Source: an uncultured Rhizobiaceae group bacterium
GTDB taxonomy: Bacteria > Pseudomonadota > Alphaproteobacteria > Rhizobiales > Rhizobiaceae
NCBI GenBank assembly: GCA_947501445.1
Contig: CANMVS010000016.1
Location: 62,001 to 126,000 of the forward strand
Reading direction: 5' to 3'
Length of the DNA stretch: 64,000 nt
The translations under genes were made by a program, and so were the position numbers. Below the pieces are notes generated by a model. It saw only the letters and a list, made by a program, of their open reading frames with translations. It did no database searches and was not told the origin of the DNA. This document shows positions 19,715 to 50,281 of this stretch, one piece after another (the stretch's first letter is position 1; each line of letters starts with the position of its first letter).

Positions 19715-20803
19715 GGATCCCCACTTCACAAACCTACTGCGAAAAGCGACCGGATCCACCCACCATTCCAAGTCACGCCACACGTCGGGCACAGGCAATG
19801 TGTTTATTGCTTCAATAAGCGGCGCCTGCGGCACGTGCGTGTAGTGACGGGACATACTGTCGACGGCATGCCCTAGAATTTGATCCTTCACGTGAGGATG
19901 GATTCCATTGACCACAAGTTGTGTGGAAACCGTATGTCGCCCGGTATAGGGGGACACGTCTTTGATGCCGGTGCGTTTCCTGGCACCCTTGACGGCGCCT
20001 TTGATCTGACCGCCCGCCCCTTCAATCAACTCGTAGGGTTCGCCTTTGTGTGTCCTGAAGAGGATTCCGTCATGTTCACAAAGTGAGGAAAACAGCTTCA
20101 CCAGAAAATCATGAATCGGGATGCCTCTTGGCTCACCCGTCTTAGACTTGTTTAGAGATATCCATTGCTTGTCTACGTCGACATCATTTGCCGACAATGA
20201 AAACAATTCAATAGGGCGCATGCCAGTGTAGAACAGCGCTGTCATTACCATTGCCGGTGCGGGCGACATTGCGGCGACAAATTTGGCCGCATGTTCATAT
20301 TCAACAGGTGTCGTTCCGCTGCGTGTCGGTTTATCTCGACCCGCCATTGTACCTTTGACCTTGCGGGGTCGTTGCCACATCCGCATTTCCGCCCAATCGT
20401 TCTTAACGGCGTGGTTCCAAACCGCAATGAACGGGGTGAACAACTGGCGATTTATCGTTTCAGGTTGAGCGGTTGGGTAGAGTTTTTTGGCGGCTTTTTG
20501 CAGGTCGTTCTGTTTTATATCACTCAATTTATCACCGAAGAAAAACGCCAGTAAGCCCTTCTCTTCGCTACCGATGAACCTGTTATCCCCGCCCGCTTCA
20601 AGGTAAGACTCTACGGCTTGAGCGAATGTTCTGGTCGCCTTCGCCCCGTACAAATGGTCACTTACTAGTTGCGATTCGCGCTTTATGCGGATCGTCTCCG
20701 CCGCTTCCGGGTTGTCAGTCTTTGTAGATTCTCTGATAGTCTGTCCATGGACGGTGCCACTGATCCACCAGTACTCCCCCCGTTTGTACTTCTTGAGACC
20801 CAT
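19706..20803 (-). CDS. int: Tyrosine recombinase (prophage integrase)
   Basis: About 365 residues. The catalytic domain shows the R-K-H-R-H-Y set: 'TGMRPIELFSL' (Arg), 'SKTGEPRGIPI' (Lys), 'TGRHTVSTQL' (His-x-x-Arg preceded by Gly), 'ILGHA' and 'MSRHYTHV' with the nucleophilic Tyr. The N-terminal domain begins MGLKKYKRGEYWW. AAAGG is 9 bases before ATG 20803; an upstream frame to 20872 lacks domain sequence. Its location beside tRNA-Thr identifies the left end of the prophage. It overlaps the excisionase-like gene by about 120 bases. Confidence 0.95.
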   Translation of the reverse strand: MGLKKYKRGEYWWISGTVHGQTIRESTKTDNPEAAETIRIKRESQLVSDHLYGAKATRTFAQAVESYLEAGGDNRFIGSEEKGLLAFFFGDKLSDIKQNDLQKAAKKLYPTAQPETINRQLFTPFIAVWNHAVKNDWAEMRMWQRPRKVKGTMAGRDKPTRSGTTPVEYEHAAKFVAAMSPAPAMVMTALFYTGMRPIELFSLSANDVDVDKQWISLNKSKTGEPRGIPIHDFLVKLFSSLCEHDGILFRTHKGEPYELIEGAGGQIKGAVKGARKRTGIKDVSPYTGRHTVSTQLVVNGIHPHVKDQILGHAVDSMSRHYTHVPQAPLIEAINTLPVPDVWRDLEWWVDPVAFRSRFVKWGSMR

Positions 20804-20982
20804 CTCATTAAACCTTTTATCTCTGCGATATCGTTGCTCGTAAGTGTTATGTGCCTGCCGTTCACCATGCATAGGCCATGTTTTTTCGCGAGTTTTGCAA
20901 GACCTCGCGGGGTCATCCTAAGCGTTTCAGCCGCCTCATGCAGCGTGTGTATGGCTTCAGAATTATCATTTGCTGGTTTCAT
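20683..20982 (-). CDS. Excisionase-like helix-turn-helix protein
   Basis: 99 residues. 'TLHEAAETLRMTPRGLAKLAKKHGLCMVNGRHITLTSNDIAEIKG' fits a winged MerR/Xis-type (HTH_17) domain; the C-terminus is very basic (RKRRRRSA). It overlaps the 5' part of the integrase gene in another frame, a common xis-int arrangement, so it probably directs excision. The N-terminus contains PANDN, a motif recurring in this prophage. Confidence 0.75.
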   Translation of the reverse strand: MKPANDNSEAIHTLHEAAETLRMTPRGLAKLAKKHGLCMVNGRHITLTSNDIAEIKGLMRWVSRSTNGGSTGGSVAPSMDRLSENLQRLTTRKRRRRSA

Positions 20983-21021
20983 GGCGTGACTCCGCTGTTG
21001 TTTGTTGCCTGCCAGGAGTCA

Positions 21022-21294
21022 TCATTCTTGAGCCTCCTCAATTTCATAATACCCAACCACATCACAAAACTCTTCGATGACGCCGGTTGCGGTAAGTATC
21101 ACTTCATCCATCTGATAGATTGATTCCGAGCAGAAGATTTCGTGACGCTTTATGTATTCGCAAGCGATGGTTTCCAGCCTTTCCAATTTGGCGATTTTGG
21201 CGTCTCTTTCGGCCAGCATTTCGCGATACATTTTGACCGTTTCCTGGTGACTTCGATCGGCCTGAGCAAGTTCATTGTTGGGTTCAAGTGTCAT
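21022..21294 (-). CDS. Small coiled-coil phage protein
   Basis: 90 residues from ATG 21294 (MTLEPNNELAQAD). Residues 12-45 are a Glu/Lys/Arg heptad-rich helix (HQETVKMYREMLAERDAKIA). The C-terminal half is acidic with 'MDEVILTATGVIEEFCDVVGYY'. It overlaps the next upstream gene's end by 11 bases, in a run of overlapping leftward genes. Function unknown. Confidence 0.65.
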   Translation of the reverse strand: MTLEPNNELAQADRSHQETVKMYREMLAERDAKIAKLERLETIACEYIKRHEIFCSESIYQMDEVILTATGVIEEFCDVVGYYEIEEAQE

Positions 21295-21604
21295 CGGTAC
21301 GGCCCTCCAATTCTGTGCGAGCCTGCGCCCGTCCCTGTGCAGTGTACTTTTCCTTGAACCTTTGAATCGCATCCACGACCCGTTGAGGATCTACGCGTTC
21401 GCGTTCTTTCTTGCCGTACTCTTTGTCGATGAAAAGCAGAAAGCCGTTGTCGCGTGTGTCCAATCGGATTTCGAGATACTTCAAATCGAAATCGACAATC
21501 CACCATCGAACGTCCTGCACACTGTTCAGAATACCGCAAAACCTGCCGAAATTAATGTTCCAAGTGTCGCCTGTATCCTTGCTTGTTGGCCAGGTGTCAG
21601 TCAT
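21284..21604 (-). CDS. Hypothetical phage protein
   Basis: 106 residues starting MTDTWPTSKDTGDTWNINFG, with alternating strands ('VRWWIVDFDLKYLEIRLDTR') and a basic helical C-terminus. ATG 21604 is 2 bases below the stop of the upstream gene. No family is recognised. Confidence 0.6.
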   Translation of the reverse strand: MTDTWPTSKDTGDTWNINFGRFCGILNSVQDVRWWIVDFDLKYLEIRLDTRDNGFLLFIDKEYGKKERERVDPQRVVDAIQRFKEKYTAQGRAQARTELEGRTDDT

Positions 21605-21605
21605 G

Positions 21606-21827
21606 TCACCAGTCCCCGCCGTCGTTTTGAATTCTGATATTGTCAACGAGGTAGTCTGGATCGATAGCATTGTTATCGAGGTGAACAGGGCCGCCGTCTT
21701 CACCATTCCTCATGACATGCAACGTTCCACTTGCTGAAAACAGCCACAGTGTTGACGGCCACTTTTTGGCGACACGTTTCAGGGCAGCAATGGCTTTGCG
21801 TTCTTCGTCGTTGAGTTCAATTGTCAT
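21606..21827 (-). CDS. Hypothetical phage protein
   Basis: 73 residues, MTIELNDEERKAIAALKRVA followed by a beta-rich part (STLWLFSASGTLHVMRNG) and an acidic end. Proteins with this short helix-strand pattern are common in alphaproteobacterial temperate phages without assigned function. The start is ATG 21827, overlapping the upstream gene by 11 bases. Confidence 0.65.
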   Translation of the reverse strand: MTIELNDEERKAIAALKRVAKKWPSTLWLFSASGTLHVMRNGEDGGPVHLDNNAIDPDYLVDNIRIQNDGGDW

Positions 21828-22074: not shown

Positions 22075-22411
22075 CGTTCTTGCCCTCCAATGCTGCGCGT
22101 GCAGGACACCCACCGCAGTCCTCAAATGATCCGCCATTTACTGAACACCAACCCTCGCAATATGTTTCGGCGTATTGTTTCAGAACCGCCTTCAACCGCC
22201 CATTCTCTGCCTTTTCGTCACGCCAACGCTCTTCCCAATATCGAGGTGCGGCTGAGTACCCGCGCAATTGGGAGACGAGCTTCCTAAGGCATTCGATTTC
22301 AGCTTCCTGCGCCCTAATGTGCGCAACACTGGTGTGGATGATGGCGACATCATTTCGCCACGGCTCCAGACCCCAAATCATCGCACTGAGCGCTTCCTTT
22401 ACATCAGTCAT
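22064..22411 (-). CDS. Hypothetical phage protein with coiled coil and Cys cluster
   Basis: 115 residues from ATG 22411 (MTDVKEALSAMIWGLEPW). A long central coiled coil (residues 30-75) is followed by four cysteines in 'ETYCEGWCSVNGGSFEDCGGCPA', a possible metal site. It overlaps the HNH gene start by 8 bases. Confidence 0.6.
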   Translation of the reverse strand: MTDVKEALSAMIWGLEPWRNDVAIIHTSVAHIRAQEAEIECLRKLVSQLRGYSAAPRYWEERWRDEKAENGRLKAVLKQYAETYCEGWCSVNGGSFEDCGGCPARAALEGKNDDK

Positions 22412-22730
22412 TCGCCTGTTCCCTTCTCGCCCGATCACGCCGGCGGCAGTTTTCTTTGTGAGTCACCATCTCCAAATGGTCAGGATTGACACACAGCCTG
22501 TTGCGACACTTATGATCGATTTGTTTTTTGCCGGGCACATACCCGTATTCGTTGGTGTACATGACGCGATGAACCGCGCAGGTCTGGCCGCGCAGCTTCA
22601 TTCGCGGATAGCCTCTCCCACGCCCTGAGTTACCGGACGTCGGCCCGATCCACGTCCAACACCCGGTAACGGGATTGGGTTTAACGTCCTGCATTATTCT
22701 CGCCATAATGGCGGTGCGCGTGGCGGTCAT
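22404..22730 (-). CDS. HNH endonuclease
   Basis: 108 residues. The HNH core is visible as 'CAVHRVMYTNEYGYVPGKKQ', 'IDHKCRNRLCVNPDHLEMVTHKEN' with paired cysteines around it, as in phage-borne HNH proteins related to homing enzymes. The C-terminus ends REQAND. The ATG overlaps the stop of the upstream zinc protein (ATGA). Role in the phage is unknown. Confidence 0.85.
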   Translation of the reverse strand: MTATRTAIMARIMQDVKPNPVTGCWTWIGPTSGNSGRGRGYPRMKLRGQTCAVHRVMYTNEYGYVPGKKQIDHKCRNRLCVNPDHLEMVTHKENCRRRDRARREQAND

Positions 22731-22972
22731 TGTGGGCACCCATTTTGATTGCAAGTCGGGCACGGAATACCGCGCTTTGCCCACGTGATTGTGTGCGGTC
22801 CATGATATGTTCTGGTTGCGTTGCAACGGGCACATTGAAATCGCAGATATTCAGAACCTGCATCAACAACATGCATGCGTTTTACTGGTCGAACACGGCG
22901 GCGCTTTGCGTCCGGGAACATGTGAATTTGTCGATAGGCTTTCGATGGGACAATGCTTGGCGCAGTGGTCAT
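22727..22972 (-). CDS. Small zinc-ribbon-like protein
   Basis: 81 residues from ATG 22972 (MTTAPSIVPSKAYRQIHMF). Two cysteine pairs, CARC and CPTC, separated by about 25 residues, suggest a zinc ribbon; the middle is very basic (DAKRRRVRPVKR). Translationally coupled to the HNH nuclease gene. Confidence 0.65.
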   Translation of the reverse strand: MTTAPSIVPSKAYRQIHMFPDAKRRRVRPVKRMHVVDAGSEYLRFQCARCNATRTYHGPHTITWAKRGIPCPTCNQNGCPQ

Positions 22973-22986
22973 GCGGTATCCTCCGA

Positions 22987-23097: not shown

Positions 23098-23112
23098 GGT
23101 TAAGGCCTTTCA

Positions 23113-23134: not shown

Positions 23135-23177
23135 CAGGCGTCATTTCACGGCGCCCGCAAGCATTGCCAGGCGGCGT

Positions 23178-25412: not shown

Positions 25413-26075
25413 TTACGGCGCTCGCAAAATTGAGAACCTGACAACTCCGGTTATGGTCGCATCTTCGGAATGACCGTCGTCATATGAAATGGGCGTCTGA
25501 TGATTTGGATCCGTTGATCTTGGCCACAGCCAATGCGAACCATCGTTGTCTATAACAAATTCTTTTAATGTCGCTTCATACAGTCCCGATTTGTTGCGCC
25601 TATTCACCATGACGTGCTGCCCGCTACGTGGGCGAACGCCATTTGATATTGTTGCCTCAACAAAGACGATTGATCCGTCCGGGTAAATGGAATTCATGGA
25701 ACTACCGCGAACCTCAAAACCACTCAGATCCATGTTCTCAAGTCCCGGTGGCGGGGTTATATAGACTTCTTTCTGGTCGTCATACTCGTGCTCAACAGCT
25801 TCCATCCATACTCCTGCTTGAACTTCACCAACAATTCTATATGGCTTCGTCGGCGCACCGCCTCCACCTAACGGAACAAGATTTTCGCGTAACGTAGAGG
25901 CTCGTTGAGCGAGCTGAAGTATGCGTATGGTAAACTGCGCAGACGGCTTGTCTTCGTCCCGTTCCCACTTGCTTAAGCGCCCCTGACTCGTGCCAATTTC
26001 GGCGGCAAATTCAGCCTGTTTCATGCCAAGCGCTTGCCGCGTCTCTTTTATGAATTCACCGTTCAATTCTTGCAT
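25413..26075 (-). CDS. S24-type self-cleaving phage repressor (CI-like)
   Basis: About 220 residues from ATG 26075. The N-terminal HTH is 'ETRQALGMKQAEFAAEIGTS' continuing QGRLSKWE. The C-terminal peptidase domain has a cleavage site Ala-Gly in 'GEVQAGVWMEA', the catalytic Ser in 'VRGSSMNSIYPDGS' and Lys in 'YEATLKEFVI'. This is the LexA/CI arrangement that undergoes RecA-stimulated autocleavage, so the prophage should respond to DNA damage. It lies between PL and PR, whose spacers carry the same palindrome. Confidence 0.92.
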   Translation of the reverse strand: MQELNGEFIKETRQALGMKQAEFAAEIGTSQGRLSKWERDEDKPSAQFTIRILQLAQRASTLRENLVPLGGGGAPTKPYRIVGEVQAGVWMEAVEHEYDDQKEVYITPPPGLENMDLSGFEVRGSSMNSIYPDGSIVFVEATISNGVRPRSGQHVMVNRRNKSGLYEATLKEFVIDNDGSHWLWPRSTDPNHQTPISYDDGHSEDATITGVVRFSILRAP

Positions 26076-26107
26076 GTTTCTGTTCTCAATCCTGACCGAG
26101 TTGATAG

Positions 26108-26136
26108 CGCATACCATTAAGTGCGCGAAATGTAAA
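26108..26136 (-). promoter_or_regulatory. Possible repressor-maintenance promoter
   Basis: On the minus strand: TTTACA, 17-bp spacer, TATGCG, leading into the repressor gene about 30 bases away. The spacer contains TTTCGCGCAC, an incomplete version of the operator, which would permit autoregulation. Confidence 0.45.
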
Positions 26137-26158
26137 AGGCTATATAGCATATTTATTC

Positions 26159-29507: not shown

Positions 29508-30089
29508 ATGGCACAACTAGCAAGTAAATTTGATGCGACCGAACACGATACAGAACAGCGGGATTTCGAGGGTTTGCCCAACGGCATATACGAATTTGAA
29601 GTCGAGGCTTCCGAAATTGTCGAAACCGGCCCGGAAAAAGACCGTACGGGTAACGGTATGAAATACACTGCCAATGTGCGCGAACCCGAAGCGTTGGCGG
29701 GGCGAAAATTCTTTGGTTTCATCAACCTTGAAAACAAAAATGCGCAAGCTCAGGAAATCGGGCAAAAGGAACTCGCCAGCATGTGCCGGGCAATTGGCAT
29801 AACAGAGGTTGAGGACACGGAAGAGCTTCACCTTCAGCCCTTTATCGTCAAAATCGGCATGGGGAAACCAAGCAAGAAAAAGGATGCCGATGGCAACCCG
29901 GAATATCCGGCAAAGTCTGAAATCAAGAAGTACTTCTTCCCGGACGAGGGCAACCTGCCAGAACCGGCTATCGACGAAAATCAGCCCGTGAAAGCCGCCA
30001 ACGACAATCGCGCGCCAGCCGCCAGCGACAATAAACCAGCGCCAGCGAAAGCGGCTGCGGCCGGCGGGAAAAAGAGGCCGTGGGGTTAA
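29508..30089 (+). CDS. DUF669 protein, probable single-strand DNA-binding partner
   Basis: 193 residues. 'DFEGLPNGIYEFEVEASEIV' and 'GNGMKYTANVREPEALAGRK' plus 'FGFINLEN' match DUF669, a family that co-occurs with Sak4-like ATPases and may act as the cognate SSB-like protein. The C-terminus is a disordered Ala/Pro/Lys tail with ANDN and SDN motifs. The stop overlaps the next ATG (TAATG). Confidence 0.8.
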   Translation: MAQLASKFDATEHDTEQRDFEGLPNGIYEFEVEASEIVETGPEKDRTGNGMKYTANVREPEALAGRKFFGFINLENKNAQAQEIGQKELASMCRAIGITEVEDTEELHLQPFIVKIGMGKPSKKKDADGNPEYPAKSEIKKYFFPDEGNLPEPAIDENQPVKAANDNRAPAASDNKPAPAKAAAAGGKKRPWG

Positions 30090-30355: not shown

Positions 30356-31399
30356 ATGCGAATAGAAATCGCACGGAATCAACTGGCTGGCTTGTTATCA
30401 CAAGTGACAAAGGCTGTCGAGGCGCGCAACACAATACCGATACTGAACCATGTTCGCCTGGAGGTATCGAATGGCCGGTTGTTTGCCACGGCAAGCGACC
30501 TTGATATCGAAATCAAGGGCAGCATTAAAGTTGAATGTTCGGAAGACTGGTCAGGTTGTTTGCAAGCCAGTTTGCTTACCAAAATTATCGGCAAACTGAA
30601 GGGTGACACCGTCACTCTGGAACCGGGCGATGATCAGGCCGTCGTCAAATCTGGCCGAAGCCAATTTAAGTTGAATACGCTGCCCGCAGCGGACTTCCCG
30701 ACGATGGCAATGAGTGCAATGGAAGCCACATATGAGATCGATCTTGCCGAAATCGTTGCACCTACCGTATTCGCAATTTCGTCTGAGGAAACCCGGTATT
30801 ACCTCAATGGGGTGTTTCTTGAATCAGGCGCAGCAACAGCGACCGACGGTCACCGATTGGCGCATGTCGAGCGCAAACCGTGGGGTGAGCATCCCGGAAT
30901 AATCATACCACGCAAAATGGTCGGTCTCATTCCAAAGGGTGTGCAGGCGGTTTCTATCGGCCAAAGCAGGATTCAAATTGAAACTGACGATATCACCATC
31001 AACAGCAAGTTGATTGACGGTAACTTCCCTGACTACAGGCGCGTTATTCCAAGCGACAATGACAAGCTTGCTGCTGTTGACAGGGATGCATTGCGCGCCG
31101 CCGCTGACCGGGTTGTTCTGGTCTCAGACCAACGGGCCGTAAAGTTGGCATTTGCGGGCGACAATATTGACCTTTTCGCGAAAGGGCAGTCAGGCAATGC
31201 CGAAGACAGTGTTGCGTGCACATACAGCGACGAACCAATGGATATTGGTTTCAACAGCAAGTATTTGGCTGACTTGCTAGCCAATCTACCGACGGGCGAA
31301 ATCAAGATTGCATTGAAGGATCCAGGATCCCCTGCGCTGATAACCAGCGTGGAAGACGACACAGTCAAATTCGTTTTGATGCCAATGAGGTTTGGCTGA
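30356..31399 (+). CDS. dnaN: Phage-encoded DNA polymerase III sliding clamp (beta)
   Basis: 347 residues with three clamp domains: domain 1 'ARNTIPILNHVRLEVSNGRL', domain 2 'YYLNGVFLESGAATATDGHR' and 'LIDGNFPDYRRVIP', domain 3 ending 'VKFVLMPMRFG', the canonical C-terminal MPMR pocket sequence. The product encircles DNA and tethers polymerase or other partners. It is a full-length clamp rather than a fragment; a phage copy may recruit phage proteins with clamp-binding peptides (see findings). Confidence 0.95.
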   Translation: MRIEIARNQLAGLLSQVTKAVEARNTIPILNHVRLEVSNGRLFATASDLDIEIKGSIKVECSEDWSGCLQASLLTKIIGKLKGDTVTLEPGDDQAVVKSGRSQFKLNTLPAADFPTMAMSAMEATYEIDLAEIVAPTVFAISSEETRYYLNGVFLESGAATATDGHRLAHVERKPWGEHPGIIIPRKMVGLIPKGVQAVSIGQSRIQIETDDITINSKLIDGNFPDYRRVIPSDNDKLAAVDRDALRAAADRVVLVSDQRAVKLAFAGDNIDLFAKGQSGNAEDSVACTYSDEPMDIGFNSKYLADLLANLPTGEIKIALKDPGSPALITSVEDDTVKFVLMPMRFG

Positions 31400-32624: not shown

Positions 32625-34391
32625 ATGGGTCTTCGTTACTTCCAAAGGGACGCTGTCGATGAGGTCTTCGACTATTGGGGTCACACCGCAGGTAACCCGC
32701 TTGTCGATATGGCGACAGGTACCGGGAAGTCGATAACGCTTGGCACCCTCACGCAAGAGATGATTGTCAAATACCCTGATATGCGTGTCGGCATTGTCAC
32801 GCACGTTGTCGAGTTGGTCGAAGGGAATTTCCTTGAGTTGCTCGGAATTTATCCCTTTGCGCCAGCTGGCATTCTGGCGGCGGCTTTAGGGCGACGTGAT
32901 TTCGATGCACAGATTTTGTTTTGCCAGCTTCAGACCGCTTGGAACAAAACCGCAGCCATTGGAAGTATTGACGTACTCATAATTGATGAAGCGCATTTGG
33001 TCCCAACCAATGGCGCAACGATGTATCGAAAAATGATTGACCAGCTACTTTTGCTCAATCCTGACATGAAGGTTGTCGGGTTTACGGCGACACCCTACCG
33101 ACTGGACAGCGGCAGACTTGATGAGGGTGACGACAGGCTATTTGATGACATCGTTTACACCTACGGCATTCGCGAGGGAATTGACGACGGATATCTGACA
33201 CCCATCACATCCACACAGACTTCCGTAAGGCAGAACATATCCGGCGTAGGAAAATTAGGTGGCGATTTCAAGAAAGGTGCGTTGGCTGCCGCGGTTGATA
33301 AGGAAGCGCTCAACCGACAGATTTTGGAGGAGGTATTAGACGTTGAGGGGTACCGCAGAAAAGCGTTGTTTTTCTGCGCTGGCGTACAGCACGCCACCAA
33401 TCAGCGTGACCTCATTCGCGAAGCCGGCCGTACTTGTGAGGTTATACATGGTGACACTCACAAAAATGACCGCCGACGGATAATTGCGGCCTTCAAAGCC
33501 GGGGATATTTGGGGGGTCACAAATGACAATGTCATGTCGACCGGTACGAACGTTCCCGGCATCGACCTGATAGTCGATAGCTCACCAACCGCGAGCGCAA
33601 GCAGATACGTACAGCGCGTTGGCCGTGGCACGCGTGTCATTTATCCACCCGGCTTTGATTCCGAGGCTGTTGACGCCGAGGCGCGCAGGGCTGCAATTGC
33701 CGGTCACATCAAACCGAACTGTCGCTATATGGATTTTGCTGGCAACCTCAATCGGCACGGGCCGGTCGATATGATCGAGCCAAAAGTGCCAGGCAAGGGT
33801 GACGGTGAAGCGCCAATCAAAATCTGCCCGCAAGACGAGGGTGGGTGCGGCGAGCAGTTGCACGCATCACTGCGTATATGTTGGAAATGTGGGCACGAAT
33901 TTCCTGAACCGGAAACCAAGTTGGACAAAACCGCCGCGGATGCACCCATCATTTCAACGGCGGAACCAACCGTTCGCGAGGTGGCCAGCCGTCGTTTTGA
34001 TTACCACGAAGGCAAGGCCAATAAGCCGCCAAGCGTCAAGACAACATACATGTGCGGACTTACCGCCATGCGCGAATGGCTGTGCCCGCAACACACCGGT
34101 TACGCAAAGAGCAAGGCCGACCGATGGTGGTTGAAACACGGCGGCGAACGCCCGTTTCCTAAATCCGTTCGGGAATGGCTTGAGCGCCAGAACGAACTGC
34201 TTGAAACAATGGAAATCACGGTCGAGCCGAATGGGAAATACTGGAACATCGTCAGTCAGCAACCAGGTGAAAACCAGCAATTTGCAGACGTGCCAGCACC
34301 GGCCAACGACAATGCGCCCGAAGTCACGCCAGCCAACGACAACGCGAAGGTCATCGATTGGGATGAACTCGACGACATAATACCGTTTTGA
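32625..34391 (+). CDS. Superfamily 2 DNA helicase (DEAD/DEAH type)
   Basis: 588 residues. Motif I is 'DMATGTGKSITL', motif II 'LIIDEAHLV', motif III 'VVGFTATPYR', and motif VI 'YVQRVGRGTR', an SSL2/RecQ-like helicase core. After the core there is a zinc ribbon ('CPQDEGGCGEQLHASLRICWKC'). The C-terminus has two ANDN motifs and an acidic end 'DWDELDDIIPF'. It probably unwinds DNA during phage replication or recombination. Confidence 0.9.
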   Translation: MGLRYFQRDAVDEVFDYWGHTAGNPLVDMATGTGKSITLGTLTQEMIVKYPDMRVGIVTHVVELVEGNFLELLGIYPFAPAGILAAALGRRDFDAQILFCQLQTAWNKTAAIGSIDVLIIDEAHLVPTNGATMYRKMIDQLLLLNPDMKVVGFTATPYRLDSGRLDEGDDRLFDDIVYTYGIREGIDDGYLTPITSTQTSVRQNISGVGKLGGDFKKGALAAAVDKEALNRQILEEVLDVEGYRRKALFFCAGVQHATNQRDLIREAGRTCEVIHGDTHKNDRRRIIAAFKAGDIWGVTNDNVMSTGTNVPGIDLIVDSSPTASASRYVQRVGRGTRVIYPPGFDSEAVDAEARRAAIAGHIKPNCRYMDFAGNLNRHGPVDMIEPKVPGKGDGEAPIKICPQDEGGCGEQLHASLRICWKCGHEFPEPETKLDKTAADAPIISTAEPTVREVASRRFDYHEGKANKPPSVKTTYMCGLTAMREWLCPQHTGYAKSKADRWWLKHGGERPFPKSVREWLERQNELLETMEITVEPNGKYWNIVSQQPGENQQFADVPAPANDNAPEVTPANDNAKVIDWDELDDIIPF

Positions 34392-35139: not shown

Positions 35140-36416
35140 GTGAGTCACAGGTGTTCCTCGACGGTAAAGTCGAGTTACGGCCCGGTGATTGCCGTGAAGT
35201 CCTGAAAGACATCCCGGACAACAGCGTCGACAGCGTTGTCACGGATCCGCCCTATGCGCTGGTGTCGATTGTGAAGAGGTTTGGAAAGACTGACGTTGAC
35301 AGCACAACAGACCGTCATGCCAAGCGCACAAGAGAGGGTAAGGAAGCGTATGGGCGTCTAAGTCGCGGATTCATGGGGTGCGTCTGGGACAACGGCGAAA
35401 CAGCCTTTGCATCTGAGTTTTGGGCCGAAGTCCTGCGCGTCCTAAAACCAGGCGGACATGTTGCATCCTTTAGTGGAACACGGACATATCACCGTATGGC
35501 GGTCGCCATTGAAGACGCGGGTTTTGAAATCCGTGACCAGTTGGCATGGGTGTATGGAACCGGTTTTCCTAAAAGTCACAACGTCGGCAAAGCGATTGAC
35601 AAAGCTGCAGGTGAACCAACCGACGAAGCCCGCAAGTGGGCCGGTTGGGGCACGGCTCTGAAACCCGGTTGGGAACCAATTTGCCTTGCACGCAAACCTC
35701 TGATCGGAACGGTTGCTGAGAACGTCTTGAAATACGGCACCGGCGCCTTGAACGTGGACGGGTGTCGGGTTGGTACCACAGACACGATACGGGAAATTCA
35801 TCGAAACGTATCGCTAGGTTCATCATCTGGCAGTATTTACAATAAGGCTGGTAAACCAGGCATATATCACCAGAACGACAAAGGCCGCTGGCCAGCCAAC
35901 ATCGTCCACGACGACAGCGACGAAGTCGTTGCCTGCTTTCCAAACAGTGACGGCGCGCAGGGTGTTGTCAGTGGACACGAACAATCACTGACCGCAGGGC
36001 AGAACGGGATATACGGCAAGTTCGCCCGCACCGCATCTGCACCGCCGCGCAACGACACCGGTTCGGCTGCCCGTTTCTTCTATGGCGCAAAGGCTGACAG
36101 GTCCGACCGCATCGGCAGTAAGCACCCGACAGTCAAACCGGTCGACCTTATGCGCTGGCTTGTGCGGATGGTTACGCCACCGGGTGGACTTGTGTTTGAC
36201 CCGTTTGCAGGTTCCGGCACTACCGGTCAAGCCGCATGGCTTGAGGGTATGCGGTGCATAATGGTGGAGCGTGAAGAAGAGTATCAGGCTGACATCGCCG
36301 AGCGCATGCGTCTTGCAGAGGCAGGACCGATTGAACGCAAGCAGCGAATGGTCACGCAGGATGATTCAGCGCTGCCACTGTTCGGTGACAACGACAACAC
36401 AAGAAAGGCTGCATAA
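35136..36416 (+). CDS. DNA methyltransferase (N4-cytosine/N6-adenine, beta type)
   Basis: 426 residues. Motif IV 'VVTDPPYALVS' comes first and motif I 'VFDPFAGSGTTG' near the C-terminus, the permuted order of beta-class enzymes. Target specificity cannot be read from sequence. It likely protects phage DNA or alters expression. The C-terminus 'LPLFGDNDNTRKAA' carries a clamp-binding-like segment and an ANDN-like motif. Coupled to the next methyltransferase by a one-base stop/start overlap. Confidence 0.9.
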   Translation: MSESQVFLDGKVELRPGDCREVLKDIPDNSVDSVVTDPPYALVSIVKRFGKTDVDSTTDRHAKRTREGKEAYGRLSRGFMGCVWDNGETAFASEFWAEVLRVLKPGGHVASFSGTRTYHRMAVAIEDAGFEIRDQLAWVYGTGFPKSHNVGKAIDKAAGEPTDEARKWAGWGTALKPGWEPICLARKPLIGTVAENVLKYGTGALNVDGCRVGTTDTIREIHRNVSLGSSSGSIYNKAGKPGIYHQNDKGRWPANIVHDDSDEVVACFPNSDGAQGVVSGHEQSLTAGQNGIYGKFARTASAPPRNDTGSAARFFYGAKADRSDRIGSKHPTVKPVDLMRWLVRMVTPPGGLVFDPFAGSGTTGQAAWLEGMRCIMVEREEEYQADIAERMRLAEAGPIERKQRMVTQDDSALPLFGDNDNTRKAA

Positions 36417-37222
36417 TGGCAAAACTTACAAAGGCGCAGGCAAAAGCCCACGGCCAGGCTGTCGAGATTTTGCAGCAAGACGTATTGTCGTGGGACGATA
36501 GGGAGTTTGTGTACCGGAACTGGAACGAAGGCGCGAACCATGCAAACGGTGCGGCTGGCGCGTTCTTTACGCCCTTTGATCTTGCTTTCGATTTCGCCAT
36601 TGACGCTGGCGGCGGGCGGGTTATCGATCTATGCGCCGGCATTGGCATGCTTTCATACGCCATAAATTGCCGCTCCCGATTTGCGGAAGCAATGCCTGAA
36701 TTGGTGTGTGTCGAACGAAACTACGACTATGTCGAAGTTGGAAAGAAACTACTGCCAGAAGCCAAGTGGATCCATGCGGACGTTTTAGACGTTCTGGAGA
36801 TGGAACTTGGCCGCTTCGATACAGCAATCAGCAATCCACCATTTGGAAACATCAAACGCTCAAAGAATGCGCCGCGCTACACCGGCAAGGATTTCGAGTT
36901 CCATGTGGTCGATATCGCGGCACATCTTGCAGACCACGGCACCTTCATTCTGCCGCAAGGGTCTTCTGGTTTCTTCTACAGTGGCCGCCAGAACTATTGC
37001 AGGCAGACCGAAGGCAAGGCGATCAAGTTTCAGGAGTTGACCGGACTTCATTTTGATGCCGGTTGCGGCGTAGACACCAGTTGTTTTCTAAATGAGTGGA
37101 AGGGCGTTTCGCCGCTTTGCGAAATCGTGTGCGTGGAATTCCCAATAATTGAGCCGCCCGAAATCGCACCAGCTGCACCGGCAAACGACAACCAACTCAC
37201 TTTGTTTGGTGAGGCAGCATGA
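36416..37222 (+). CDS. Second DNA methyltransferase-like protein
   Basis: 268 residues. S-adenosylmethionine site 'VIDLCAGIGMLSYAI', acidic 'LVCVERNYDYVEVGKKLL', and catalytic 'DTAISNPPFGNIK' (NPPF), giving a gamma-like order, consistent with an N6-adenine methyltransferase. The C-terminus reads PANDNQLTLFGEAA: QLTLF fits the beta-clamp-binding consensus and the whole 14-mer has the spacing of an SsrA tag. Overlaps the next gene by 4 bases. Confidence 0.85.
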   Translation: MAKLTKAQAKAHGQAVEILQQDVLSWDDREFVYRNWNEGANHANGAAGAFFTPFDLAFDFAIDAGGGRVIDLCAGIGMLSYAINCRSRFAEAMPELVCVERNYDYVEVGKKLLPEAKWIHADVLDVLEMELGRFDTAISNPPFGNIKRSKNAPRYTGKDFEFHVVDIAAHLADHGTFILPQGSSGFFYSGRQNYCRQTEGKAIKFQELTGLHFDAGCGVDTSCFLNEWKGVSPLCEIVCVEFPIIEPPEIAPAAPANDNQLTLFGEAA

Positions 37223-37545
37223 GCACCGCACAAGACCCGGCTGACTGCCACATCTGCGGGCGTCACGCGATTGGCGTCGGTATCGGCGCACACAACAACC
37301 CGAAGTGGGTTTGCGAAGAATGCGTCGCAATCATCAAGCACGTGCGCGCCGTCAAGCGGCTGGATCCATACGAGATGAAAGCCCGTGAAGGCGGCATGGA
37401 CGCAGCGGCACCGCTTGTCGGTGAGTTCGGACCGGATTTGAGCCTATGGGAAGAGGATCAGGTTTTGAGCTTTTGCGGTGCTGTGTGGAAAGGTTGCGCC
37501 GACCGAATACGTACACTCATAGCCAGCGGAGAGCCACCATTTTGA
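37219..37545 (+). CDS. Small zinc-binding phage protein
   Basis: 108 residues. 'CHICGRHAIGVGIGAHNNPK' and 'VCEECVAII' form a CxxC...CxxC zinc site at the N-terminus; the rest is helical and acidic. A frequent passenger beside phage methyltransferases in this group, without assigned function. Confidence 0.65.
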   Translation: MSTAQDPADCHICGRHAIGVGIGAHNNPKWVCEECVAIIKHVRAVKRLDPYEMKAREGGMDAAAPLVGEFGPDLSLWEEDQVLSFCGAVWKGCADRIRTLIASGEPPF

Positions 37546-37604
37546 AACACGCCAACGATAACGCACCACGTGCCTACTACAACGAAAATGCAGGACAAGA
37601 TTAA
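37542..37604 (+). CDS. Possible 20-residue ORF with ANDN motif
   Basis: TTG-initiated MKHANDNAPRAYYNENAGQD, overlapping the preceding stop and ending one base into the next ATG. It carries the ANDN motif and may be a true microprotein, but its size forbids certainty. Confidence 0.35.
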   Translation: MKHANDNAPRAYYNENAGQD

Positions 37605-38065
37605 TGCGCAATCAATGGAAACCAAAAGCCTCTGATCCAAGGTATTGCGAAACTTGCAACAGGCGCCTGGAGAGAAAGCGCAACAAATCGGGCCGACTCG
37701 AGGGCTTCCGAGACTTCTTGCGACGGCGGTTTTGTTCACTGTCATGCGCTAACTCGCGAAGCAAAGGCGGCACATCTAGAAAGGCCTATCATTACCATGC
37801 GCGGAAATTCAGAAACTATTGCTGTGAATGTTGCGGTACAGAAAAGAGACTTCAAGCGCATCACATAGACACCAACTGGAAGAACAACGATCCGGCGAAT
37901 ATTCAGACCTTGTGCATATATTGCCATCAATTTTGGCACAAAACCCATGAAAGATGTGGAGCTGTGCCGACGGGACCCATGCCGAAATTAGTCTCTTATG
38001 AGCAGGTCAAAACTGCCAACGTGTCAGCCAATGACAACAAGGAAGCCATGAATGACGCCGCTTGA
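37604..38065 (+). CDS. HNH endonuclease
   Basis: 153 residues. An N-terminal zinc pair ('YCETCNRRL', 'FCSLSCANSR') precedes 'CCECCGTEKRLQAHHIDTNW' and 'NIQTLCIYCHQFWHKTH', the HNH core with its structural zinc cysteines. The C-terminus ends 'SANDNKEAMNDAA', an SsrA-like tail. It overlaps the primase gene by 14 bases. Confidence 0.85.
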   Translation: MRNQWKPKASDPRYCETCNRRLERKRNKSGRLEGFRDFLRRRFCSLSCANSRSKGGTSRKAYHYHARKFRNYCCECCGTEKRLQAHHIDTNWKNNDPANIQTLCIYCHQFWHKTHERCGAVPTGPMPKLVSYEQVKTANVSANDNKEAMNDAA

Positions 38066-40244
38066 AGTTGCTCAATTCTACCGTAGTCACAATTGGCCTG
38101 TTTTCCCTTGTCGGGCAAAAGAAGAGATCGACAAACATACAGGCGAAATCCACAGCGCCAAGACGCCATATACAAGCAACGGCTTCCGCGGTGCCACCAA
38201 GAATTCACGCATAATTACTGAATGGTGGCGTCGCACACCCGACGCGATGATTGGATTGCCGACGGGCAAGGAAACAGGCATCTGGATCCTGGACCTGGAT
38301 ATCAAGCCGGGCGTTGGTGATGGTCATGAATGGCTCGACCGCATGGAGGACGAGCACGGCGAATTGCCAGACACCGCCCGCGTGAAAACCATGGGCGGCG
38401 GCACGCATGTATTCTTCAATCACGTTGCAGGCATACGCAATCGCGGTGGACTTGGAACATGTGTGGACGTGAGAGGCCAGGATGGGTACATAATCGCGCC
38501 TGGCAGTGTCGCCGGGGATGGCCGTACATATGAATGGATAGACCACGACGACATCGACAACCTGCCGAAAATCGCCGACGCGCCGCAATGGCTCCTTGAT
38601 TTAATATTGCCGCCCGAACCGAAGGTCGTGCAACACGACTATCAGTATCAACCGGGAGGCAATGCGCCCTATGTAGAACGGGCGTTTCAGGCGGAACTCA
38701 ACACACTTGCACACGCACCGCCTGGCGGTCGTGGATACCAACTGAATTCAAGCGCGTTCAGCGTTGGCACGCTTGTTGGTGCGGGTGCGCTTTCAAGGTC
38801 GGACGCCGAGAATGGTTTGCTGGAAGCCGCAACAGCCTGCGGCGTGCTGGCAAAAGACGGTGAGCGAGAAACCAATGCCAAAATACGACGCGGTCTGGAC
38901 GCCGGCACGAAACAGCCGAGAATGATACCGGAAGCGGACGCCGGTTTTAACCAAGACAACACCACACTTATTGACCTTACAAAAATGATCGCCAACGGGC
39001 TTGCAAAGGCAAAACCCTGTGAGGACGCTCCGGCTATCGACAACCCGCAGCAGGACGACACGCCCGCAGCTAACGATAACCAGCCGTTGTTCAAAGCCAC
39101 GCCGTTTGAATGGCTTGACCCGAAGAAGCTACCACGGCGCGAATTTGCATTCGGTACGCATTATATCCGTAAGTATGTGTCGGTAACGGTATCACCCGGC
39201 GGGCTTGGCAAGACCAGCAACAGCATTGCGGAAGCCTTATCAATGACAAGCGGCAAGACGTTATTTGGCTTTCCACCGAAGGGAAAACTTAACGTTTGGA
39301 TTTTTAATGCGGAAGATCCTCGCGACGAAATGGAACGCCGAATTATGGCGGCGTGTCTGCACTACAATTTGAAAGCCAAAGATATTGAAGGGCGACTTTT
39401 TCTGGATACCGGGCGGGAGCAAGAGATGGTCGTGGCGATCGAGGACAAACAAACGGGGGTGCGTATTCAAAAGCCATTGGTGGAAGCAGTCGTTGAGCAA
39501 ATTGAGCGCAACAAGATAGACGTTATGATCATCGATCCATTCGTTTCTACCCATAGTGTCAACGAAAACGATAACGGTGCCATCGACAAGGTCGCCAAGC
39601 TTTGGGCTTTAATCGCCGATGAGACCAATTGCGCGATTGATGTGGTTCATCACCTGCGCAAGGTTTCAGGCCGCGAGGCGACTGTCGAGGACTCCCGTGG
39701 CGCTGTATCCCTACTAAGTGCATCCAGATCGGCGCGGGTTTTAAACCGAATGACTGACAATCAAGCCACAAGTGCCGGTATCAGTGGCGATGACCGGTTC
39801 TCGTATTTCAATATAAATCAGGGCAAATCCAATTTGACAAAAATGTCTAATCGCATGGATTGGCGTAAGCTTGAGTCCGTTGCGTTGGGCAATGGTACGA
39901 GCCTGGGCAAGCCACAGGACCATGCTGGTGTCGTGGTACCGTGGCAGTGGCCTGACAAAGCCACAATCACCGATGCCGTACCATCCGATCAGCTAAAGTC
40001 GATCATGGTCAAGGTTGCGAACACCGATTGCCGGTCGAGCGATCAGTCACCGCATTGGGTTGGATACGTCATTGCGGACGCACTTGAAATCGACATGCCG
40101 GTTTCCAAAGGTATGACGGCGGAAAAGAAGCGTATCAAGCACATGATTGACGGATGGATTGAGTCAGGCACATTCAAAAAAGAGCGCGACAACGACCCGG
40201 CACACATTGGCCGCAAGATTGAATTTATCAGAGTTGCGAAATGA
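38052..40244 (+). CDS. Bifunctional primase-polymerase / RecA-fold helicase
   Basis: 730 residues. Residues 1-190 are a prim-pol domain: 'NWPVFPCRAKEEIDKHTG', 'IWILDLDIKPGVGDG' with the DxD metal site, 'TMGGGTHVFF' and 'CVDVRGQDGYIIAPGS'. After a linker with AANDNQPLF comes a RepA/AAA_25 helicase domain (Walker A 'VSPGGLGKTSNSIAEAL', Walker B 'IDVMIIDPFVSTHS', then 'VVHHLRK'). The C-terminal 100 residues resemble a winged helix. It should prime and unwind at the phage origin. Confidence 0.9.
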   Translation: MTPLEVAQFYRSHNWPVFPCRAKEEIDKHTGEIHSAKTPYTSNGFRGATKNSRIITEWWRRTPDAMIGLPTGKETGIWILDLDIKPGVGDGHEWLDRMEDEHGELPDTARVKTMGGGTHVFFNHVAGIRNRGGLGTCVDVRGQDGYIIAPGSVAGDGRTYEWIDHDDIDNLPKIADAPQWLLDLILPPEPKVVQHDYQYQPGGNAPYVERAFQAELNTLAHAPPGGRGYQLNSSAFSVGTLVGAGALSRSDAENGLLEAATACGVLAKDGERETNAKIRRGLDAGTKQPRMIPEADAGFNQDNTTLIDLTKMIANGLAKAKPCEDAPAIDNPQQDDTPAANDNQPLFKATPFEWLDPKKLPRREFAFGTHYIRKYVSVTVSPGGLGKTSNSIAEALSMTSGKTLFGFPPKGKLNVWIFNAEDPRDEMERRIMAACLHYNLKAKDIEGRLFLDTGREQEMVVAIEDKQTGVRIQKPLVEAVVEQIERNKIDVMIIDPFVSTHSVNENDNGAIDKVAKLWALIADETNCAIDVVHHLRKVSGREATVEDSRGAVSLLSASRSARVLNRMTDNQATSAGISGDDRFSYFNINQGKSNLTKMSNRMDWRKLESVALGNGTSLGKPQDHAGVVVPWQWPDKATITDAVPSDQLKSIMVKVANTDCRSSDQSPHWVGYVIADALEIDMPVSKGMTAEKKRIKHMIDGWIESGTFKKERDNDPAHIGRKIEFIRVAK

Positions 40245-45333: not shown

Positions 45334-45789
45334 ATGTTCAAAAAGATACAGATCGAAATTGCATCATTCATCGCACGCAAACTGAACCGCGGTAAAATCG
45401 TTCCGTTCGAGTTGGTGGTCAGTGAGATTGTCGCGGCACGCTCAGGCATCACCGGACCCGATGCCGATTTTTACCGGGTGTGCACCTACAAGGTTGTGAA
45501 GGAAACCGTCAAAACCTGCATCGGGAAATACAAGGCCAACAAGAAAAATCAGGACCAGTTGTCTTTACCCGGCTTCCAGCATCTACAAATTGCATATCCC
45601 GTTACGCGAAACGATGTTCACATGTTGGTGCCCATCGACCAATTGACCGACGGCGAGTTAGCCGCAAGGGCTGATGAATACGAATCTATGGCACGCGGTT
45701 GCCGTGATCATGCGCGCGAAATACGTGGATACATACAGGCCCGCACAGCCGCCAACGACAACGCGCCAGCCAAACGGGAAGCAGCATGA
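45334..45789 (+). CDS. Hypothetical phage protein with clamp-binding-like and SsrA-like motifs
   Basis: 151 residues from ATG 45334 (MFKKIQIEIASFIARKLNRG). A helical N-terminal half, then 'NKKNQDQLSLPGFQHLQ', where QLSLPG resembles the hexapeptide clamp-binding motif of Hda (QLSLPL), then a helical end closing 'TAANDNAPAKREAA'. Function unknown. Confidence 0.65.
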   Translation: MFKKIQIEIASFIARKLNRGKIVPFELVVSEIVAARSGITGPDADFYRVCTYKVVKETVKTCIGKYKANKKNQDQLSLPGFQHLQIAYPVTRNDVHMLVPIDQLTDGELAARADEYESMARGCRDHAREIRGYIQARTAANDNAPAKREAA

Positions 45790-46289
45790 CCGGCAACAGC
45801 AAGGTGCGGGCTTCGGCTCGCACCACCACACAAACAACCAGGATGGACGGTAAGCGGGTAAAGATCACCACGCGCAACGGCAAGGTGACCATCAAACCCG
45901 CCCTGCCCCAAGAATGGGAACTGCAGGCGGCACAATGTCGCCGTCTGCGCAACATGCCTGAATATGGCGGGCAGTTTCTATTCGCAGGCGACCAGAACGC
46001 GGCCAAGAGAGGCGGCAAGGCGCGCGTTCAGGCGCAGGCCTCTGGAATGATACCCGGCGAGCCGGATATGCGCGTGTACGGCGCTGGCTGTCGCCTGTTG
46101 CTATGGGAAAACAAAGTTGGGCGCGGTCCCGTCAGCGCCAGCCAGAAGGAACGGCACGCTGCGCTGGCTGCATTGGGGCACAAGGTTCATGTGCTGCGCG
46201 CAGTCAGTGAAAAGGAAGCAGCAGACCAAGCTGAGTCCCTTGTGCGCGATTGGTTGTTGCAGCCAGCTAATGATAATAAAATAGGCTAA
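45786..46289 (+). CDS. VRR-NUC domain nuclease
   Basis: 167 residues. The C-terminal half is a VRR-NUC PD-(D/E)XK fold: 'GEPDMRVYGAGCRLLLWENK' (Asp; E-x-K) and 'GPVSASQKERHAALAALGHK', the usual 'S.Q..W...L...G' motif. Phage VRR-NUC proteins act on branched or damaged DNA. An N-terminal basic region precedes it. The C-terminus ends QPANDNKIG. Overlaps the preceding gene by 4 bases. Confidence 0.87.
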   Translation: MTGNSKVRASARTTTQTTRMDGKRVKITTRNGKVTIKPALPQEWELQAAQCRRLRNMPEYGGQFLFAGDQNAAKRGGKARVQAQASGMIPGEPDMRVYGAGCRLLLWENKVGRGPVSASQKERHAALAALGHKVHVLRAVSEKEAADQAESLVRDWLLQPANDNKIG

Positions 46290-47611: not shown

Positions 47612-47656
47612 AGCGAAAATCTGAAGTTCTAATTTCTTACCGATTAGCTGAGTCGT

Positions 47657-47959: not shown

Positions 47960-48030
47960 GAATGTCGCTGCTGTACAAATTAAACACTGCTCGCCATCAC
48001 CTATTACATCTGACTTAGAATAGTCACTGT

Positions 48031-48552: not shown

Positions 48553-48711
48553 ATTGCACCTCCAATTGTCGGGAGTTTTGTGATTTTAAATACGATAGAT
48601 TGTTCGCTCAAACAGGTGCGGTGGAAACATGGCATTATCACCGGTAGCAATGCAGGTGATACACAACCACTTTATGCCAATTCTGTTTTTTCGTCAAAGT
48701 TCACGTTTCCC

Positions 48712-48740
48712 TTGACAAAATAGGCGATATCGCCTATTAG
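48712..48740 (+). promoter_or_regulatory. Promoter with embedded repressor operator
   Basis: TTGACA, 17-bp spacer, TATTAG. The perfect palindrome GCGATATCGC is at 48724-48733 in the spacer. Fourth promoter with this layout; drives the unit starting at 48780. Confidence 0.78.
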
Positions 48741-48748
48741 TCTATTAC

Positions 48749-48770
48749 ACCACCACACTTCACCACATTA
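48749..48770 (+). repeat. CACCAC leader
   Basis: CACCACCACACTTCACCACA between the promoter at 48712 and ATG 48780, followed by AGGGG. Confidence 0.72.
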
Positions 48771-48779
48771 GGGGCACCC

Positions 48780-49193
48780 ATGTCATCACAGACGCGGCAC
48801 GCATCGCCGATTCCGAAGGCTGCAAACGACAATACACCACAGCAACACACGCCAACAAAAACCGTATGTCACGATGGCGTATGGATCGGCTCCCATGAAA
48901 TCGAGCTTTTTATCGAATATGATTTGAAGTTTGGTAGACCACAACCTGAATACCCAACATGCGAAGATACCCTGCTGCCTGAAGGTGGTGTGCTGATACC
49001 ATTTTTGGATGCGAACAGGCACCGTTTTTGGGTTGCAGCGATACCTGAGGTTATAGGCAGTGGGTTTGCCTATGAATGGCGCATTGAAATTTACAAGAAG
49101 AAAATAGAAGCAGCCACAGCGCTGCGCAGATCAATTGAACAGGCGATAACTGACGACGACTATTGGGCGGATGCGGACGAGGATGCCGCCTAA
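48780..49193 (+). CDS. Hypothetical phage protein
   Basis: 137 residues (MSSQTRHASPIPKAANDNTP ...). ANDN lies in the disordered N-terminus; the middle is beta-rich ('EIELFIEYDLKFGRPQPEYP'), followed by a helical acidic C-terminus (DDDYWADADEDAA). The stop overlaps the next ATG (TAATG). Leads the unit driven by the repressed promoter at 48712. Confidence 0.65.
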   Translation: MSSQTRHASPIPKAANDNTPQQHTPTKTVCHDGVWIGSHEIELFIEYDLKFGRPQPEYPTCEDTLLPEGGVLIPFLDANRHRFWVAAIPEVIGSGFAYEWRIEIYKKKIEAATALRRSIEQAITDDDYWADADEDAA

Positions 49194-50281
49194 TGCGGAC
49201 ACCATCACAGCACCGGGCAGAGGTCGATACGTGGCGCGCCGACGCACCCAAGGACGACAGCGATATTTTTCATGATCAATGGGAGCCACATTGGGGCGGC
49301 GGCAAGCCACGGCACGCGTCATTGGCTGTACAACTGGCCGCGTTAATCGAATTGCGAAATAGGCCGGAAAAAGAACAGAGCATAGGGCAGATGGAAACGA
49401 ATTGGAGCGTTGTACCAGACGGGCGCAAAACCGACGCGGCAGGTCTTTTTACTGAACGCGGCAGAGATATTTCACCATCTGTAGACGAAATCACAGCCTC
49501 ATTGAGTGATGTTGTCGTGACTTATCATACGGGACCAAAGTCGACCTGCAATGGAGGCAAGGGGGAAATTCACGCGCTGCCGGTTGATGGTGACATAGAG
49601 CGCAACGACGCGGGACAGGTTACGCGCATTGGAAAACTACGGTTCAGCGACGGACTGCAAACCGAAAAGGCATACAAAACGTCACCAGATGGCAGCGTAA
49701 TCCAGTACGATGCGCGACTGCCAACCGGCGCGATGCTTCACACAAAGGACGAAACGAAGGGACAGTTGGGCGGTCAGAGCACAAAAGGCTTGGCAGCAAG
49801 TAACAAATATTTCGCTGATATGCTTTGCACCACAGATCACCGATACATCACTGGCAACCGCAAAACTAGGCGCGGCAAATCATACACAGCAAGCGAATCC
49901 AAGGCCATGCTTGCCAACGCCTGGAGCAACACCAAATGCCCGCCAACTGTCACGAAATGCCCGGACGGATTGCCGTGCGGATCCGCCAGGGTTGCAGATA
50001 GCTTCGTGGGATTGAAAAAGGGGCGTTGTGGAGATTCCGGTGCGCAGGCGTGGGAAGACATCGCCACATCGATCGTCAATCGGGAAATATGGGATCAAAC
50101 ACTAGCCGCACTGTCCGAGCGGGATACGCGTACATTGGAAGCAGCATTGAAGGCGCCAAACATGCAAGCGGTCGGGAGCGCCATGGGCTTCTCTGGAAAA
50201 CAGGCCGAACGGCGCGGGAGGCAGGCATTATTGGCTGCAAATGACAATTTTTCATCTATTTTGAAAAAAAAAGCGGCCTAA
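49193..50281 (+). CDS. Hypothetical phage protein with SsrA-like C-terminus
   Basis: 362 residues from ATG 49193. It contains Cys-rich stretches ('CPPTVTKCPDGLPCGSARVA', 'KGRCGDSG') and a C-terminal helical region ('LKAPNMQAVGSAMGFSGKQA'), ending 'LLAANDNFSSILKKKAA', close to the SsrA tag start AANDNF. No family recognised. It is the last gene before the long gene-free structured segment. Confidence 0.65.
   Translation: MRTPSQHRAEVDTWRADAPKDDSDIFHDQWEPHWGGGKPRHASLAVQLAALIELRNRPEKEQSIGQMETNWSVVPDGRKTDAAGLFTERGRDISPSVDEITASLSDVVVTYHTGPKSTCNGGKGEIHALPVDGDIERNDAGQVTRIGKLRFSDGLQTEKAYKTSPDGSVIQYDARLPTGAMLHTKDETKGQLGGQSTKGLAASNKYFADMLCTTDHRYITGNRKTRRGKSYTASESKAMLANAWSNTKCPPTVTKCPDGLPCGSARVADSFVGLKKGRCGDSGAQAWEDIATSIVNREIWDQTLAALSERDTRTLEAALKAPNMQAVGSAMGFSGKQAERRGRQALLAANDNFSSILKKKAA

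Follow-up and report, generated by a model that had tools for sequence, protein, structure and literature searches.

The stretch of 64,000 nucleotides analysed here (the window) stems from an uncultured bacterium of the Rhizobiaceae (contig CANMVS010000016.1, positions 62,001 to 126,000; our contig C16) and holds part of a prophage, many of whose predicted proteins carry the tetrapeptide ANDN. The prophage spans about 62.6 kb of the 6.8-Mb genome, from a tRNA-Thr gene to a 26-bp repeat that is identical to the tRNA end and forms the right attachment site, attR (L069:18039-18064, in the adjoining stretch). Its features are collected in Table 1. Integrase, repressor, a tRNA attachment site and a replication module of the 16-3 type are all present; the prophage is a 16-3-like temperate phage. 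Its rightward DNA-metabolism region encodes a Sak4-like AAA protein, a DUF669/SSB-like protein, DnaN, a helicase, two methyltransferases, an HNH-like protein, a Prim-Pol/AAA protein and a VRR-NUC-like protein. The helicase is 40-57 % identical to those of the phages 16-3, AP-16-3, NV1.1.1, 14B and X2_25. With the rhizobial phages of the 16-3 type the prophage shares Sak4, DUF669/SSB, clamp, helicase, Cas4-type exonuclease and VRR-NUC, and ANDN in several homologous tails; it differs in GC content (0.51 versus 0.59) and in that several of its ANDN proteins clustered with no others. No relatives of its primase were found among the viral contigs searched.

Table 1. Features of the prophage in the window, with the position of the ANDN motif where present
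Feature	Position	Strand	Remarks
tRNA-Thr (ggt)	19438..19512	+	3' end serves as prophage attL
Phage integrase (PF00589)	19706..20872	-	
Small protein adjoining the integrase	20683..20982	-	N-terminal MKPANDN, motif 20962-20973; no Pfam or PHROG match
HNH protein	22404..22835	-	C-terminus REQAND, partial motif AND
HTH/S24 repressor-like protein	25413..26150	-	without ANDN
DUF669 / phage ssDNA-binding-like protein	29508..30089	+	ANDN 29997-30008 in C-terminal tail; end KKRPWG
Phage DnaN (sliding clamp)	30356..31399	+	without ANDN; context for the QxxLF tails
SF2-type helicase	32625..34391	+	two ANDN in C-terminal tail (34302-34313, 34332-34343); end DDIIPF
N6/N4 DNA methylase	35136..36416	+	C-terminus LPLFGDNDNTRKAA (GDNDNTRKAA), near-variant of ANDN
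DNA methyltransferase (phrog_3820)	36416..37222	+	tail PANDNQLTLFGEAA, motif 37181-37192
52-aa open reading frame	37446..37604	+	ANDN 37551-37562; no PHROG match; doubtful as a gene
HNH-like protein	37604..38065	+	tail SANDNKEAMNDAA, motif 38027-38038; PF01844 below cut-off
Prim-Pol/AAA protein	38052..40244	+	ANDN 39069-39080, between both domains
phrog_32407 protein	45334..45789	+	tail TAANDNAPAKREAA, motif 45751-45762
phrog_824 protein (VRR-NUC annotation in some relatives)	45786..46289	+	tail QPANDNKIG, motif 46266-46277
Protein with N-terminal ANDN	48780..49193	+	motif 48822-48833; C-terminal DEDAA
phrog_36072 protein	49163..50281	+	start between 49163 and 49391; tail AANDNFSSILKKKAA, motif 50237-50248
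Large terminase, portal, prohead protease and capsid genes	52632..57923	+	no ANDN here or onward to the window end at 64000

The abundance of ANDN is real, strong and a property of the lineage. The window contains 12 exact copies in 11 predicted proteins (two of them in the helicase), and three proteins of the same prophage outside the window contain one more each. Genes were called by our own reading-frame scripts; protein counts are approximate and starts are predicted. A preceding sequence-only reading had listed the products concerned, and its list stands, including four quoted tails and the partial motifs of the HNH protein and the N6/N4 methylase, with two amendments: the frame that it placed at 37542 is a doubtful gene, and the start of its gene at 49193 lies within the range given in Table 1. 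In the 64 prophage proteins of the window (12,360 residues) ANDN is the most frequent tetrapeptide; 0.14 copies are expected from composition, and 500 shuffles yielded 0.10 on average and 2 at most. Permutations of the same four letters are absent from these proteins, save NDNA (4 copies; it can overlap ANDN). The unselected host sample, C1:1-400000 with 385 proteins and 111,181 residues, contains none, which disposes of an equal frequency in host proteins; of our 60 host stretches it alone is unselected, 40 having been picked for holding the pattern, the tmRNA (transfer-messenger RNA) or the remainder of the prophage. Genome-wide, the DNA pattern GCNAAYGAYAAY has 70 sites, versus 29 when read backwards; 12 of the 70 lie inside 29.3 kb of the window, three farther along the prophage, and a single one corresponds to the tmRNA tag itself. 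The 12 window copies are written in 10 different codon strings. The excess therefore arises at the level of protein, as the sequence-only reading had held, and a DNA repeat is ruled out as its origin.

Viral relatives show the same. We collected 40 IMG/VR contigs that encode a protein related to the 36416 methyltransferase; they hold 253 ANDN in 196,071 residues, and 39 of the 40 have at least one copy. The proteins of contigs and prophage (941) fall into 314 clusters, and ANDN turns up in 39 of these. A reduced set of 568 proteins holds 83 copies, with 0.84 expected (99-fold), and none of the single-substitution variants of ANDN exceeds 12-fold. General composition as a cause is excluded by these variants together with the shuffles and the letter permutations. 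Placement is biased, too. When each ANDN cluster is represented by a single protein, 26 copies are no more than 40 residues away from the C-terminus (7.7 expected), 10 near the N-terminus (7.5 expected) and 6 in between (23.8 expected). The methyltransferase tails are readable at 32 of the 40 loci, the other eight (L110-L117) being frame-broken or incomplete; all 32 have ANDN, in 14 codon strings. In the alignment ANDN is invariant (22/22), while the rest of the tail is mostly variable save an LF motif and the Ala-Ala (AA) end. This methyltransferase (36416-37222) and the methylase before it (35136-36416) have QxxLF or LPLF motifs in their tails; such motifs look like sliding-clamp-binding peptides, and the phage has its own DnaN (30356-31399). 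A search for the pattern ANDNxP in 299 genomes of the phylum found few matches in each.

The classical phage 16-3 has 17 ANDN in 16 of its 101 annotated proteins (14 of 88 by our script), and ANDN is the top tetrapeptide there as well; the bearers include the portal protein, at its C-terminus, and the tape-measure protein, at its N-terminus. With both strands counted and the backward pattern as control, the sites number 18/0 in 16-3, 18/0 in 14B, 23/1 in AP-16-3, 20/0 in X2_25 and 20/1 in NV1.1.1. By script, these five phages and the window prophage have 14-19 ANDN proteins per genome. The remaining 20 of the 25 phage records counted have 0-2 sites each: phiM12, phiCbK, vB_OspM_OC, RcapMu, Azospirillum Cd, lambda, P22, VpKK5, NP1, Shpa, Y3_1, X2_26, MMDA13, N28_2, phiLM21, POI1126, POA1180, PBC5, SIO1 and HTVC010P. 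Thus, ANDN richness is a trait of one lineage, the five named phages and their kin; it is general neither to temperate phages nor to rhizobial hosts, and a rule for all alphaproteobacterial phages is ruled out. A gammaproteobacterial counterpart, ANDE, was not found either: with crude gene calls, lambda, P22 (first 40 kb), VpKK5 and NP1 contain no copy.

A close comparison is offered by X2_25 and X2_26, whose hosts are strains of one species and which share homologous genes for Sak4, an SSB-like protein, exonuclease, helicase, primase and VRR-NUC. X2_25 has 17 ANDN proteins and 25 AA ends in 95 proteins; X2_26 has no ANDN protein and 2 AA ends in 118. One protein, annotated as a repair exonuclease in 16-3 and with weak helix-turn-helix matches in the prophage copy, ends in RVRVAVLDA in X2_26, in RVRVAMMDA-ANDNEPLRAAA in X2_25 and in RVRVAMLDA-ANDNEPKEQAA in the window prophage. 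The ANDNEP...AA of the latter two is a tag-sized tail appended where the X2_26 homologue stops. X2_26 is the sole record without an integrase match among nine; the other eight comprise five matches above and three below the cut-off, the latter including the integrase annotated in 16-3. Nor do the names integrase or repressor occur among the 134 annotated features of X2_26; this phage is therefore probably virulent.

AA ends demand more caution. They close 22 of the 39 ANDN clusters, compared with 30 of 275 other clusters and 5 of 347 host proteins; among clusters with an N-terminal or internal ANDN the figure is 7/13. In the six ANDN-rich phages 40 of 93 ANDN proteins end in AA, versus 74 of 450 others. 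Many of these ends, however, belong to ATGA or GTGA overlaps of stop and start, where the same codons carry the ribosome-binding site of the downstream gene, e.g., GAGGCAGCATGA or GGAGGCGGCATGA. At window positions 37196-37222, as often at other overlaps in the six phages, the AA end encodes the next gene's ribosome-binding site (GGAGGCGGCATGA). Ribosome-binding sites at ATGA overlaps are a confounder whenever C-terminal degrons of phages are counted, and taking AA ends at face value was given up once this effect was found. ANDN and AA go together at overlaps (31/51 vs 32/157, p 2e-7; the Fisher tests here and below count related clusters or genomes as independent, the family-level test excepted). 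Taken phage by phage, the link reaches significance in the window prophage (p 0.0008), X2_25 (0.002) and AP-16-3 (0.02). At non-overlapping stops AA ends amount to 50/327 in the six ANDN-rich phages, 16/804 in host genes, 0/90 in X2_26 and 10/140 in three other ANDN-poor rhizobial phages. Driven by overlaps in part and yet enriched at other stops, the AA half of the likeness to a tag is plausible; it is weaker than the ANDN half.

These overlaps also speak for a neutral explanation, in which ANDN is a favoured linker filler or a DNA-level effect and AA a by-product of ribosome-binding sites: GAGGCAGCATGA and GGAGGCGGCATGA do stand at the overlaps, and at other stops the ANDN-AA link is not significant (8/39 vs 42/288, p 0.34). 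Against it, one-letter variants reach 12-fold at most where ANDN reaches 99-fold, and the residues stay fixed while the synonymous codons vary. X2_26, of similar GC content and with homologous genes, has no ANDN at all, and the AA excess at non-overlapping stops is seen neither in it nor in host genes. We consider this explanation highly improbable.

What could read such a motif? The tag encoded by the host tmRNA reads (A)ANDNYAEARLAA; the recognition of ANDN as the head of this tag, made from the prophage alone, was correct. Directly downstream of ssrA lies sspB (PF04386, E 1.6e-46), which is the genome's single PF04386 match and lies outside the prophage. The host SspB matches the solved chains 2nys, 2qas and 2qaz, presumably from Agrobacterium (2nys) and Caulobacter (2qas, 2qaz), and shares the C-terminal VVSLDAFRKK with 2nys. 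A phage-supplied adaptor is ruled out for 16-3, 14B and AP-16-3, as PF04386 was found in none of these three records at E<=1. With the tmRNA family RF00023, all matches in the host were below threshold; one of these falls within the tmRNA.

In a first draw of alphaproteobacterial genomes 30 loci yielded 29 tags; 28 came from genomes with SspB, and 26 of these 28 start with ANDN. The 29th belongs to G325, a genome without SspB. A second draw comprised all 18 of 290 genomes that lack SspB, G325 included, plus 12 that have it. The 18 gave 11 tmRNA matches and 10 tags, of which one has the ANDN head; the others start with ANDD, AKRD, AKSD, ANES or ANQN. The 12 gave 8 tags, all with ANDN. Combined, the head is present in 34/36 tags with SspB and in 1/10 without (Fisher 5e-7), or, by family, in 34/36 versus 1/4 (p 0.004), an association that is correlational and in which part of the SspB losses could be assembly gaps. 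Every tag read ends in AA. As ANDN tracks SspB and AA is retained regardless, ANDN appears to act as the SspB-dependent part of the tag; the co-variation suggests SspB as the reader of ANDN. It also provides a simple comparative test of the role of the conserved ANDN in alphaproteobacterial tags. Some tags are peculiar: at the tmRNA loci L205, L195 and L161 the tags predicted by ARAGORN are unusually long and contain a further stretch of NDN or NGN, e.g., ANDNFVACNDNYGDAISVAA. Outside the prophage, a host protein (L042:15807-16160), with weak matches of the SRPBCC type (Polyketide_cyc2, AHSA1), has the tag-like end MIANDNRSPVMQAA and may be a native SspB substrate.

In the phages of the 16-3 type, the window prophage included, 14-19 proteins per genome thus probably incorporate the head of the host tmRNA tag as a recognition site for SspB. 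The best reading of ANDN is that of gene-encoded SspB-docking signals, many of which would form SsrA-like degrons for ClpXP. Host SspB would bind ANDN in C-terminal tails, N-terminal extensions or linkers and tether the protein to ClpX; the AA end, where present, would be engaged by ClpX, and ClpP would then destroy the protein. N-terminal and internal copies would serve as tethers, for which the SspB site of RseA is a precedent. As a result, the turnover of phage proteins, chiefly those of DNA metabolism, would depend on the adaptor; they could, e.g., be cleared during lysogeny. SspB binding, degradation and benefit are what we infer; the putative mechanism is well motivated.

Several observations weigh against this reading. 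Apart from the loss of significance at non-overlapping stops, the ANDN-AA link is not significant in 14B (4/14 vs 15/69, p 0.73), NV1.1.1 (0.11) or 16-3 (0.06). The annotation of 16-3 gives 5/16 vs 14/85. The conserved tails of the helicase (DDxPF) and of the SSB-like protein (RPWG) lack AA. Two genomes, G307 and G311, have SspB and a tag without the ANDN head; conversely, G315 has the tag ANDNELALAA with no SspB detected. The 10 SspB-less tags come from only four families, and 8 of the 18 SspB-less genomes yielded no tag. Among the phages, phiLM21, N28_2 and Y3_1 match integrases and hold just 2 sites each; the pair X2_25/X2_26 therefore proves nothing about cause. The temperate PBC5, POI1126 and POA1180 have no site. 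The AlphaFold model of the methyltransferase, with a mean pLDDT of 50.2, is too poor to judge the tail and was not used.

The main rival is a different reader: ANDN would dock, for instance, a phage or host protein that gathers the phage's DNA-metabolism proteins, and the match to the tmRNA tag would be coincidental. Many bearers are indeed DNA-metabolism proteins, and their tails also carry clamp-like QxxLF and SSB-tip-like DDxPF; genes for the clamp (DnaN), for a 204-aa and for a 111-aa protein are present in 6/6 ANDN-rich and 0/4 ANDN-poor phages compared; and the residue directly after ANDN shows no hydrophobic preference. Yet all four letters equal the conserved head of the host tags, genomes without SspB mostly lack ANDN in the tag, and the bearers in 16-3 include portal and tape measure. 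We therefore regard another reader as unlikely. The helicase tail (window 34332-34391) combines an acidic stretch with a PF end in 6/6 ANDN-rich phages compared; DDxxPF resembles the tip of bacterial SSB, and the tail may recruit SSB-binding proteins. The DUF669/SSB-like tails (window 29997-30089) have a recurrent RPW-type end among the homologues listed (RPWG, RPWSK, NPWSK).

It had also been proposed that the copies are decoys. Saturating SspB, they could shield other proteins or upset the quality control of the host, and 14-19 ANDN proteins per genome would provide many copies. The motif, however, is spread over many enzymes and placed at C-termini, with AA ends, as in substrates, and a single abundant protein would presumably serve better. 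The decoy idea found no specific support and is very improbable. Overall, the interpretation in the sequence-only reading is partly supported. As to tag-like degrons, the ANDN half, sspB beside ssrA and the co-variation of tag and SspB uphold it, and the AA half is partly explained by overlaps; the assignment to early proteins fits the window but not the portal and tape-measure proteins of 16-3.

Gene-encoded SspB docking would have parallels. Compared with the SsrA tag of alphaproteobacteria, the phage tails have the same ANDN head, often the AA end and a similar length (host ANDNYAEARLAA, phage ANDNEPKEQAA). In contrast to the tag, they lie within reading frames and are not added by trans-translation via tmRNA; ANDN is also found at N-termini and in linkers, and middle part and length are more variable. 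RseA, a native protein, combines an SspB site with a C-terminal AA open to ClpX, a layout that the phage proteins would share; there, however, it is one regulator, here 14-19 bearers in each genome of a phage lineage, with a putative SspB dependence. Excerpts of PMC8138137 name cleaved RseA of E. coli among the ClpXP substrates delivered by SspB. In engineered DAS+4 tags extra residues part the SspB site from the ClpX end, and degradation requires the adaptor, as excerpts of PMC8138137 and PMC9825169 describe. In the phage tails a putative SspB site would likewise be set apart from the ClpX end; they differ in being natural, in variable spacing and in ending in AA instead of AS. Finally, according to PMC6873191, Gp53 of phage SPO1 acts on Bacillus ClpCP. 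There, too, a phage exploits a host Clp protease by adaptor logic; SPO1 provides the adaptor, whereas here the phage proteins would bear the docking site. Among the literature matches listed, we found no open-access account of ANDN-bearing phage proteins or of the use of SspB or the SsrA tag by phages, and a term search of the papers on AP-16-3 and phiLM21-type phages met no mention of ANDN, SspB, ClpX or degron.

That many unrelated proteins share ANDN suggests that these phages use the disposal adaptor of the host to control their own proteins. More tentatively, and as something possible that falls short of probable, a large share of the proteome of a temperate lineage may be one SspB regulon (nucleases, methylases, helicase, primase, SSB-like protein and, in some phages, portal and tape measure) that couples lysis and lysogeny to SspB/ClpXP and whose code is missing from an integrase-less, apparently virulent relative. 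If this is true, phages would not only suffer or block host proteolysis; they would mark many proteins of their own for degradation, using a copy of the host's quality-control tag. The tails would be a ready set of natural SspB-dependent degrons with differing spacing, and an example of a four-residue motif spreading across dozens of unrelated proteins. For the classical model phage 16-3, they would add a post-translational layer to the control of lysis and lysogeny.

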